Shown here piece by piece: positions 6,479-9,567 of a stretch of 64,000 nucleotides of DNA. A program made the position numbers and the translations under genes. The stretch comes from Rhizobium sp. CC-YZS058 (GTDB lineage: Bacteria; Pseudomonadota; Alphaproteobacteria; Rhizobiales; Rhizobiaceae): contig NZ_JAYESJ010000001.1 in assembly GCF_034720595.1 (NCBI RefSeq), positions 3,684,001 through 3,748,000 of the forward strand, read 5' to 3'. The notes beneath the pieces were generated by a model. That model had not been told where the DNA came from, searched no databases, and saw nothing but the letters and a program-made list of their open reading frames with translations. The first letter of the stretch is position 1; each line of letters opens with the position of its first letter.

Positions 6479-7402
6479 TCAGCGCCCCTTGCCGATCTCG
6501 GACAACTCATAAGGGGTCGTCTGATAGATGTCGTTGATCCAGTTGCCGAAGAAGAGATGGGCATGGCTGCGCCAGCGATTCTGCGGCGGAAGCTGCGGAT
6601 CGTTGTGCGGGAAATAATCATGCGGCATCTTGATCGGCACGCCGGCATCCACATCGCGGAAATACTCGTCCGCCAGCGATGTCGAATCATATTCGACATG
6701 GTTGAACATGTAGAGCCGGTTGCCCGCCCGCTCGGCCACCAGGCAGACGCCCATCTGCTCGGACTCCATCAGGATCTCCAGCCCCGGCACGCGGGCAATG
6801 TCGGCGCGGCGCACCTCCGTCCAGCGCGAGACGGGGATCTGGAAATCGTCGGAGAAGCCGTTCAGATAGACGGAGGCCGGATTGAGGTTCTGGTGACGAT
6901 AGACGCCGAAGGCCTTTTCCTTCAGCGCATGTTTCGGCACGCCGTGGAAATGGTAGATCGCCGCCATCGCACCCCAGCAGATGTTGAGCGTCGAGTGGAC
7001 ATGCGTGTTCGACCAGTCGAAGATCTCCCGCATCTCGTCCCAATAGGTCACCTCCTCATAGGCCAGCGTCTCCACCGGCGCGCCGGTGATGATCAGCCCG
7101 TCGAACTTGCGGCCGCGCACCTCCTCGAAGGTCTGGTAGAAGGCCAGCAGGTGCTCCTCGGAGGTGTTCTTGGCACGGTGGCTGCCGAGGCGGATCAGCG
7201 ACAGCTCCACCTGCAGGGGGGAGGCGCCGACGAGGCGCGCCATCTGCACCTCCGTCTTGATCTTGTTCGGCATGAGGTTGAGAAGCCCGATCTGCAGGGG
7301 ACGGATATCCTGCCGGATCGCGACCGTTTCGGTCATGACCCGCACGCCTTCCTGGACCAGGGTCTCGAAGGCGGGAAGCGTATCGGGGATCTTGATGGGC
7401 AT
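6479..7402 (-). CDS. metA: Homoserine O-acyltransferase MetA (predicted acetyl-CoA-specific)
   Basis: 307 residues of the MetA/HTS family, which activates homoserine in the first committed step of methionine synthesis. Counting from MPIKIPD, catalytic Cys142 (NICWG), His235 and Glu237 (NHVEYD) are at the family positions. Residue 111 is Glu (TGAPVETL). In characterised MetA proteins, Glu111 goes with acetyl-CoA use and Gly111 (as in E. coli) with succinyl-CoA, so this is probably a homoserine O-acetyltransferase. The ATG at 7402 is preferred over a GTG three codons upstream because it matches the family N-terminus. A SAM-II riboswitch lies in the 5' leader. Confidence 0.95.
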
Positions 7403-7466
7403 CGTTCTCACCGGTTCTCAAGAGAGCCGGCCGGAAAGCGCTGCGAACGGCCCGACGGCCGCCCAC

Positions 7467-7522: not shown

Positions 7523-7680
7523 AACGGAGATGTTCATAATCCTCAGCCGAATTTTAATCAACACGCCTTTTATCAGGGCATGTTCGTGCAAGGTCCCGCT
7601 GAATTAATAGTCGGTTGAAACTATCAGAGGACACTGCGCGTACCCATGTAAGAGGAGGAGCATTGGCATGGGAAGTTTCG

Positions 7681-9567
7681 ATGGCAGATGATGGGACACG
7701 CGCGGAGGCCACCGGCCCCGCGGATGCCGTCCTGGCGGAAGACAGACTGAAGCGGGCCACGCGCCAGGCGGCGCGCGACGGCGGCGCGCTCGATCTCAGC
7801 CTGTCCTATCGGCTGGGCGTAATGCTGCAGGCCTTCTGGGCGTCGGAGGTGCGGCTGAAAGTGCTGGGGCTCGCCTCGTTCCTGATCTTCATCATCCTCG
7901 CCACCGCCTATATGACGGTGATCCTCAACGAGTGGAACGCGCCCTTCTTCGACGCGATCCAGCGGCGCGATCTGCCCGAGTTCTTCCACCAGCTGGAAAT
8001 CTTCGCGCTGATCGCCGGCATCCTGCTGCTGCTCAATGTCGTGCAGGCCTGGCTGAACCAGATGACCGCGCTCTACATGCGGGAAGGGCTGACCCGCGAT
8101 CTGGTCAATCAGTGGCTGACGCGCAAGCGGGCGCTGCGGCTTGCCTCCCGCGGGCTGATCGGCATCAATCCGGACCAGCGCCTGCATGAGGACGCGCGCA
8201 CGCTTGCCGAAAGCACCACCGGCCTGACGCTCGGGCTCATCCAGGCGACCATCCTGCTCGTCAGCTTCATCGGCGTCCTGTGGGATCTGTCGAGCGGCTT
8301 CGTCTTCCACCTGTCCGGCCACAGCTTCTCCATCCCCGGCTACATGGTCTGGGCGGCCGTGCTCTATGCCGCCTCGGCCTCGATCCTCAGCCGCATCGTT
8401 GGCCGCAAGCTGGTGCGCATCAATGCCGACCGCTCCTCGCGCGAGGCGGAACTGCGCTTTTCGCTGATGCATGCGAGCGAAAGCATGCCGGCCATCACCG
8501 TGGTCGGCGGCGAGGCGAGCGAGCGGCACCGGATCGGCGAAAGCATCACCGCCGTGCTGCAGGTGATGAAGCGCCTGGCGCTGGCCAATACCAATCTGAC
8601 CTGGGTTTCCGCCGGATATGGCTGGGCGGTGGTGGTGGTGCCGATCATCGTGGCGGCGCCCGCCTATTTCTCCGGCGGCCTGAGCTTCGGCCAGCTCATG
8701 ATGTCGATCGGCGCCTTCAACCAGGTGAATACGGCGCTGCGCTGGTATGTCGCCAATTTCGGCGCCATCGCCGAGTGGCGGGCAACCCTGATGCGCGTGA
8801 CGGACTTCCGCCAGACGCTGACCGACATGGAGGAGGAGTACCAGCCCGAGCAGGCGATCGCCTATCGCGACACGGCGGGCCAGCTGACGCTCGAGCGGTT
8901 GGAGATTGCCAATGCGGTGGATGAGGCGCTGGCAAAGGCCGGCGGCTTCCGCCTGGTCGAAACGCCGGTGACGCTGCTGCCGGGCGAGCGGATCATGGTC
9001 AATGGCGACCATCACGTGAACCGCAAGCTGCTCTTCCAGGCGCTGGCCGGTCTCTGGCCCTGCGGCGCGGGCACGATCGGCCTGCCGAAGCAGGAAGAGA
9101 TGATGTTCCTGCCGCAGACCGCCTATATTCCGGACGGGACGCTGCGCGAAGCGCTGGCCTTTCCCGATCCGGCCACGCAGTTTGCCGATGACGCCCTGCA
9201 GGCCGCCTTGACCAAGGCCGGGCTCGGCCATCTGTTCGGCAAGCTCGATACGCGGGCGCGCTGGGAAAAGGTGCTGACCACGGAAGAGCAGAAGGCCATT
9301 CCCTTCGTGCGGCTGTTGCTGAAGCGGCCGCGCTTTGCCGTGTTCGACGAGGTGCTGGAGGGCATGGAGCCGGACTGGAAACAGCGCATGACGCGGCTTC
9401 TGACCGGATTGCCGGACACCGCCATGCTCTATATCGGCCGCTCCGAAACCTATCTGAAGATCATGAAGCCGCGCGTCCTGCATCTGCGCGCCATCGAACC
9501 CGAGGCGGGCAGACAGGACGATCCGGATGACCGGGATCAGCCGCGCCCTGTCGCCAAGGTGGTCTGA
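7681..9567 (+). CDS. SbmA/BacA-like ABC membrane protein with degenerate ATPase domain
   Basis: 628 residues: an N-terminal SbmA/BacA-type transmembrane domain (about 40-380; conserved NEWNAPFFDAIQRRDLPEFF) fused to an ABC ATPase-like domain (about 400-600), the layout of YddA-type peptide/vitamin exporters. The ATPase domain is degraded: Walker A reads NGDHHVNRKLL (residues 441-451; Arg448 at the usual Lys position, no GKS/T), the signature reads LTTEE (532-536) instead of LSGGE-like, and the H-loop His is Arg587. The Q-loop region (FLPQTAYIPDGTLREAL) and Walker B DE (Asp556-Glu557) survive. The start is the ATG at 7681 with GGAAG upstream; a TTG at 7663 behind AGGAGG is an alternative. Confidence 0.85.
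   Translation: MADDGTRAEATGPADAVLAEDRLKRATRQAARDGGALDLSLSYRLGVMLQAFWASEVRLKVLGLASFLIFIILATAYMTVILNEWNAPFFDAIQRRDLPEFFHQLEIFALIAGILLLLNVVQAWLNQMTALYMREGLTRDLVNQWLTRKRALRLASRGLIGINPDQRLHEDARTLAESTTGLTLGLIQATILLVSFIGVLWDLSSGFVFHLSGHSFSIPGYMVWAAVLYAASASILSRIVGRKLVRINADRSSREAELRFSLMHASESMPAITVVGGEASERHRIGESITAVLQVMKRLALANTNLTWVSAGYGWAVVVVPIIVAAPAYFSGGLSFGQLMMSIGAFNQVNTALRWYVANFGAIAEWRATLMRVTDFRQTLTDMEEEYQPEQAIAYRDTAGQLTLERLEIANAVDEALAKAGGFRLVETPVTLLPGERIMVNGDHHVNRKLLFQALAGLWPCGAGTIGLPKQEEMMFLPQTAYIPDGTLREALAFPDPATQFADDALQAALTKAGLGHLFGKLDTRARWEKVLTTEEQKAIPFVRLLLKRPRFAVFDEVLEGMEPDWKQRMTRLLTGLPDTAMLYIGRSETYLKIMKPRVLHLRAIEPEAGRQDDPDDRDQPRPVAKVV

Follow-up and report, generated by a model that had tools for sequence, protein, structure and literature searches.

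How does an ABC exporter work, and why does it keep its ATPase domain, once the motifs for ATP hydrolysis in this domain have disappeared? This question is raised by a gene of Rhizobium sp. CC-YZS058, which lies in the stretch of 64,000 nucleotides analysed here as a whole and referred to as the window. The gene and its parts are as follows.

7681..9567, plus strand: whole gene, an uninterrupted open reading frame of 628 amino acids for a YddA/Rv1819c-type ABC exporter whose ATPase domain appears catalytically dead
7792..8826, plus strand: membrane domain, residues 38-382, with elbow helix, transmembrane helices and two coupling helices (Pfam and AlphaFold2 model)
8098..8100, plus strand: D140, located in transmembrane helix 2, a candidate for charge coupling or gating, acidic in decayed and not in intact members
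8116..8160, plus strand: region of coupling helix 1, residues 146-160 (modelled helix 150-157; alignment)
8473..8529, plus strand: region of coupling helix 2, residues 265-283, including E267, E278 and E281 (conservation; modelled helix 269-274)
8860..9498, plus strand: degenerate nucleotide-binding domain (NBD), residues 394-606 (phmmer alignment, model and Foldseek)
9001..9033, plus strand: former Walker A motif NGDHHVNRKLL with R448 at the Lys position (alignments)
9115..9117, plus strand: Gln of the Q-loop, Q479 (alignment; Q in 82 of 174 family rows)
9274..9288, plus strand: former signature LTTEE, residues 532-536, where LSGGQ/E is expected (alignments)
9346..9351, plus strand: Walker B residues D556-E557, retained in the window protein and eroded in relatives (DE in 106 of 174 rows)
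9439..9441, plus strand: position of the former H-loop His, occupied by R587 (148 of 174 rows have R, 1 has H)

The initial annotation had assigned a YddA-type layout to this protein, and our searches agree. Pfam reported the membrane families ABC_membrane_2 (E 4.8e-31) and SbmA_BacA (E 2e-24) as well as a weak match to ABC_membrane, and it returned no ABC ATPase family for the window protein even at E<=10. Using phmmer, the C-terminal domain was aligned to the NBD of Rv1819c (6tqe; E 5.4e-49, query 92-586), the cobalamin transporter of Mycobacterium tuberculosis, and an exporter membrane domain is found here fused to an NBD fold. Rv1819c resembles the window protein in whole-length fold and domain order and is its best solved relative both by sequence and by Foldseek, in which the window model matched it with E 1.7e-25 over 627 columns. 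YddA, BclA and ExsE, type IV ABC exporters related to SbmA, also share the PF06472 membrane family and the position of the NBD. The reading frame is open from 7681 to 9567. An AGGAGG at 7653-7658 lies directly 5' of an in-frame TTG at 7663; translation may possibly start there (634 amino acids) instead of at the ATG at 7681, and the homologue P0002 likewise has 634 amino acids.

Alignment with intact paralogues (GESGSGKS, LSGGE, DE and H) placed R448 in the column of the Walker A Lys, LTTEE at the signature and R587 in the column of the H-loop His, and it verified these replacements as first described, together with the retained D556-E557 and Q479. The window protein thus has NGDHHVNRK where Walker A would read GxxxxGK[ST], lacks an LSGGQ-type signature and an H-loop His, and keeps the Asp-Glu pair of Walker B. 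In contrast, the aligned row of Rv1819c keeps both the P-loop GRSGAGKT and the signature LSPGEQ; its deposited chain has Gly at the Walker B Glu, and its H-loop lies at or past the end of the alignment compared. Judged from these motifs, canonical ATP hydrolysis has almost certainly been lost in the window protein. BclA differs in this regard, as its transport was described to need ATP hydrolysis in PMC12003926, and the window protein lacks the motifs for it.

The replaced motifs are a property of the family. We compared 174 NBD-bearing family rows, consisting of the window protein, 80 loci (the best 80 of 587 relatives), 29 family-level loci and 64 others; this set over-represents Rhizobium and contains one cut protein, L189. 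A strict P-loop was present in 37 of the 174 rows (a looser 'GK' class comprises 45 rows, 8 of them without the strict P-loop). LSGG occurred in none, L189 having no letters at that site, and the combination of S533 and G535 only in L134, which itself has no other motifs. The H-loop His was found in one row (L172), with a gap in L189. The residues replacing the P-loop differ between relatives and comprise N447-R448 types (103 rows), VEKAPFF, TQRTLLF, IDRTLLF and DVDKSSFF. A sequence error or a local loss in the window is ruled out by the 103 of 174 rows that have this type of replacement in common. Within this 103-row 'NR class' the invariance of N447 and R448 defines the class and has no evidence value. 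Conservation was read in the monophyletic group of the window, which holds 23 NBD-bearing rows in the 96-row family tree. Here R448 is R in 21 rows, N447 is N in 20, N441 is N in 21, G442 is G in 22, Y584 and G586 are unchanged in all 23 and R587 is R in 20, which is more conservation than would be expected from free decay.

Of 297 genomes from the window's GTDB family, 115 gave a match at E<=1e-30, with mostly only four candidates scored per genome; 110 carry a family member and 5 only a paralogue with 26-32% identity. The named loci carrying the family belong to Hyphomicrobiales, chiefly Rhizobium and Agrobacterium. Six other species of the window's genus were searched, and they matched the window protein with only 45% identity; the DVDKSSFF type was seen in all four of these species with motifs read. 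These 45%-identity versions (L128-L131, L304-L308) may reflect replacement or differential loss. The window copy adjoins a gene at 6479-7411, which we take to be metA and which also flanks many Rhizobium loci. A second, distant YddA-like lineage (L207, L209, L309-L313; about 27-28% identical to the window protein) was noticed as well. In the seven sequences read, neither the Lys of Walker A nor the His of the H-loop is present, L310 and L312 keep an S-x-G signature, and L207 and L209 were placed apart from the window's family in the 119-row tree.

To place these losses, trees of different scope were compared. The 119-row tree holds at most 28 of the 109 loci L003-L111, nine near-duplicates having been dropped elsewhere, and the 96-row tree consists of its family rows. 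At order level, 154 of 397 genomes matched L136 at E<=1e-60, paralogues counted, and 60 further loci were added; the resulting 140-row membrane-domain tree omits most family-level rows as well as 16 order-level loci, which comprise near-copies, a repeated window entry and the short L281 and L290, and a careful 83-row tree was drawn from these 140 rows. In the 119-row tree the window's family formed one clade (99*), to which neither SbmA/BacA and YddA nor the intact paralogues belonged. Family and SbmA/BacA stood as separate clades on long stems, with only two SbmA/BacA rows represented. The window's clade in the 140-row tree comprised 117 rows: 3 intact, with GK[ST], S-x-G, DE and His all present, 105 dead and 9 without an NBD. 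The intact members are L254 and L257 (GESGSGKS, LSLGQ, DE, His) and L260 (GDTGRGKS, LSLGE, DE, His), which unlike the window protein keep all motifs. The intact loci are presumably ExsE-like and BclA-like.

These three distant relatives polarise the decay and indicate that it took place within an ordinary ABC exporter. The initial annotation had considered a fusion, and this part does not stand. A BacA protein joined to a stray domain is ruled out, since the Rv1819c alignment spans both domains and intact members exist in the same clade. The proposed alignment of orthologues for intact motifs gave a divided answer: no close orthologue is intact, and L254, L257 and L260 are.

The fewest changes required on the 140-row tree were 2 for the signature, 3 for the H-loop, 9 for the P-loop, 14 for Walker B and 2 for the absence of the NBD, as parsimony minima without direction. 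One of the signature changes concerns the odd row L134, and two of the H-loop changes each affect one row only, L172 and L265. Similar minima were obtained on the 83-row tree, which does not include L134 and L172 (signature 2, H-loop 3, P-loop 8, Walker B 12, NBD absence 2); under the looser 'GK' class, the P-loop required 6 changes on the 96-row family tree. Because of the change counts on the two trees, we propose that decay began with rare losses of signature and H-loop, continued with repeated losses of the P-loop and ended with that of the whole domain. The intact trio falls into a deep polytomy of the careful tree, and only 40% of 200 bootstrap trees unite the intact rows, so that an early signature loss may have happened once or twice, both being possible.

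The end of this series is represented by 16 genomes in which the protein is 46-54% identical over the membrane domain and ends past the last transmembrane helix, near the position of residues 380-386 in the window protein. No remnant of an NBD was found beside these genes, mostly within 3 kb on either side (best E 0.03). A stand-alone NBD was not found in the 16 genomes with two family NBDs as queries, five of the genomes having candidates beyond the 150 scored, and all matches lay within frames of 572-692 amino acids. The NBD-less members clustered within the window's family and not with SbmA/BacA in the 119-row tree. A single NBD-less clade was rejected by the AU test (p=0.006; 15 rows, quick tree), which rules out a single origin, and the NBD-less rows, among which there are long branches, were not united in any of the 200 bootstrap replicates made for the careful family tree. 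The absence of the NBD has at least two origins.

A comparable loss has been discussed for SbmA. According to PMC13316013, SbmA has no NBD and no coupling helices, possesses TM0 helices and a full glutamate ladder, and is proton-driven through six glutamates. It was proposed there that SLiPTs derive from a protein resembling YddA through loss of the NBD, which was based on a tree of end points and one gene (PMC13316013). This gene, yddA_3 of Rhizobium tibeticum CCBAU85039, encodes a YddA membrane domain only and has no NBD in the operon (PMC13316013). Compared with yddA_3, taken here by its description only and the single example behind a speculation, the window's family offers a graded series with at least two NBD-less origins. 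A total of 366 SbmA/BacA-like proteins were classified in PMC12003926; in its main text 'degenerate' and 'nucleotide' each occur 0 times and the passages with 'walker' are author names (12 of 19 places shown). Among the titles and abstract openings listed, with most subscription journals outside the scope, there was no paper on motif decay in the window's clade.

If the domain no longer hydrolyses ATP, it should be asked whether it is still maintained. Pairs were retained for dN/dS only with dS between 0.1 and 1.2 in both domains. In the NR class, omega had a median of 0.352 for the NBD (maximum 0.80) versus 0.145 for the membrane domain, calculated from 2756 non-independent pairs; in ten intact paralogues the values were 0.185 and 0.194. 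The mean top-residue frequency in the NR class was 0.69 for the NBD versus 0.83 for the membrane domain. By this measure the dead NBD in the window's lineage is under purifying selection, in line with the earlier view that the gene is not a pseudogene. The AlphaFold2 model gave pLDDT values of 86-98 for the blocks of the NBD, and the dead domain is thus predicted to fold.

Moreover, the contact side of the membrane domain changes with the presence of the NBD. Glu267 of the coupling helix is kept in 169 of 174 NBD-bearing versus 0 of 16 NBD-less rows, and E281 in 169 of 174 versus 2 of 16. Across the order, E267 was found in 24/26 intact, 100/105 dead-NBD and 0/9 NBD-less rows; in the more distant intact paralogues it is present in 11 of 19, where it is less telling. 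This pattern suggests that the surface which touches the NBD in ABC exporters is conserved as long as the dead domain is present and erodes without it. Coupling helices were predicted in the window model and also in that of an NBD-less member, the alignment of which consists mostly of NBD-bearing relatives and may favour such helices. The residues W355, which aligns with the gate residue Y368 of SbmA, and E255, which aligns with SbmA E276, were invariant in all 174 NBD-bearing and all 16 NBD-less rows. A retention of the domain for structure, as had been suggested, seems to be the case in view of the purifying selection, the predicted fold and the co-conservation at the coupling helix.

The transport by BacA/SbmA without any ATPase domain had led the initial annotation to think of protons as the driving force. 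This could be upheld in part. The SbmA ladder E193, E203, E269, E276, E287 and E378 corresponds to E170, T180, N248, E255, E278 and E365 of the window protein, so that four of the six columns are acidic, the E287 column (E278) being uncertain as it borders a gap and as the alignment gives YddA an E there. According to PMC13316013, YddA has no equivalent of E287. In the columns of E203 and E269, E is missing from all 190 family rows, 174 with and 16 without an NBD. Unlike the SLiPTs SbmA and BacA, the window protein thus has T and N at these positions and possesses an NBD and predicted coupling helices. Therefore, a proton ladder of the SbmA type fails at two of six positions, with a third unsure. 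Since the acids kept here are also present in intact relatives, they say nothing on proton drive. D140 behaves differently, as an acid stands there in all 174 NBD-bearing rows of the family and in 12 of its 16 NBD-less rows versus 0/19 intact paralogues. Across the order this applies to 91/105 dead-NBD and 7/9 NBD-less versus 0/26 intact rows, and to 48/48 rows without a strict P-loop. D140 is a candidate for a new proton site, as a lead only that is confounded by shared descent.

Taken together, we assign a probability of roughly 0.6 to the reading that the protein belongs among the ABC exporters of the YddA/BclA/Rv1819c superfamily, that it abandoned ATP hydrolysis and transports without it, and that its NBD serves as a docked scaffold. 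The sequences show that, within a clade of the window's order, signature and H-loop His disappeared early and the strict P-loop on several occasions; Walker B was often lost, and the entire ATPase domain two times or more. The membrane domain, with an alternating-access fold putatively shared with SbmA, would then move its substrate downhill or driven by a gradient, and the dead NBD would hold together the dimer and the cytoplasmic gate. Based on the sequences, ATP-free transport by the window protein is likely, and the scaffold role is supported by the co-conservation described above. The weakest step is a proton gradient as the driver, perhaps via acids other than the full ladder (E170, E255 and E365 kept, D140 new); coupling in the manner of SbmA is only partly supported. 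That the substrate is peptide- or antibiotic-like is a guess by analogy.

Other explanations were weighed against this one. The conserved R448 and R587 could form a new ligand site instead of mere scaffolding. A dead NBD that binds a nucleotide or another anionic ligand at these residues without hydrolysis and thereby gates a gradient-driven transporter would account for the conservation of N441, G442, R448, Y584, G586 and R587 in the 23-row clade, in an NBD that is loose overall, and for the predominance of Arg at position 587 throughout the family. However, R448 is limited to part of the family with other residues in sister lineages, and two lineages manage without the domain; we regard such a regulator as unlikely. 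The protein might also not transport at all and instead modulate another membrane protein as a receptor or subunit. SUR, a protein of the ABC fold, acts as a channel regulator, and neither an operon nor a substrate link emerged among the neighbourhoods, with the energy source unexplained. A loss of transport is nevertheless difficult to reconcile with a membrane domain that is the more conserved part (omega 0.145) and with the invariance of W355 and E255 in rows with and without an NBD, which makes this role quite improbable.

A heterodimer, in which an intact ABC half-transporter supplies the ATPase, deserves attention as heterodimeric exporters often have one degenerate NBD, and a paralogue of 28-33% identity at E<=1e-30 accompanies the family member in 32 of the 110 genomes. 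The window genome holds no such paralogue in the YddA-type search. Apart from the gene itself, this genome gave a single match at E<=1e-5, a BacA-like ORF that lacks an NBD, and the window NBD matched only itself at E<=1e-8. The missing second YddA-type NBD speaks against a YddA-type heterodimer. Moreover, 78 of the 110 carriers had none at E<=1e-30, with mostly four candidates scored per genome. In 5 of the 32 genomes with a paralogue, the sole additional one listed is likewise dead (L207, L209, L309, L310, L312), and 6 of the 16 NBD-less genomes gave no NBD match at E<=1e-8, so that we consider a partner of this kind very unlikely. Finally, the gene could be functionless and on its way out, as broken relatives exist: G273 (L183) has two in-frame stops, G057 (L189) has one stop and a short frame, L281 and L290 are also cut short, and the breaks fall within or before the NBD. 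Outright loss thus also happens in some relatives. For the window gene it is highly improbable, as omega of the NBD never reached 1 in the NR pairs, 106 of 110 family matches have no stop inside the match and the NR class is present in many Rhizobium species.

Returning to transport without hydrolysis, a wider interpretation can be put forward tentatively and with less confidence. Secondary, ATP-free transport may have arisen again from an ABC exporter, at least two times and independently of SbmA/BacA, through living intermediates that lost first signature and H-loop, then the P-loop and then the domain. The dead NBD would be a temporary scaffold, refitted in the window's lineage with a conserved arginine site. 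As intact, half-decayed, dead and NBD-less members occur in one clade, the order of loss, the role of the dead domain and the moment when transport stops needing ATP are testable on natural proteins, and the series may show how an ATP-driven pump becomes an ATP-free one.

The gene neighbourhoods of the family loci showed no shared operon and none names a substrate; many of the neighbourhood clusters probably consist of antisense frames, as GC-rich DNA yields. At L114, L116, L118 and L119, all of one genus, the NBD-less gene follows genes reading like an oligopeptide permease and an isoaspartyl peptidase. These neighbours, with identities read from translations, are a possible hint at peptides. 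The findings also call for caution in annotation. Among the best 120 of 5430 relatives, many orthologues are named 'ABC transporter ATP-binding protein/permease' though their ATPase motifs are gone. Besides, P0004, P0008, P0012 and others carry the NCBI name 'glycosyl transferase family 1', apparently a propagated misannotation.
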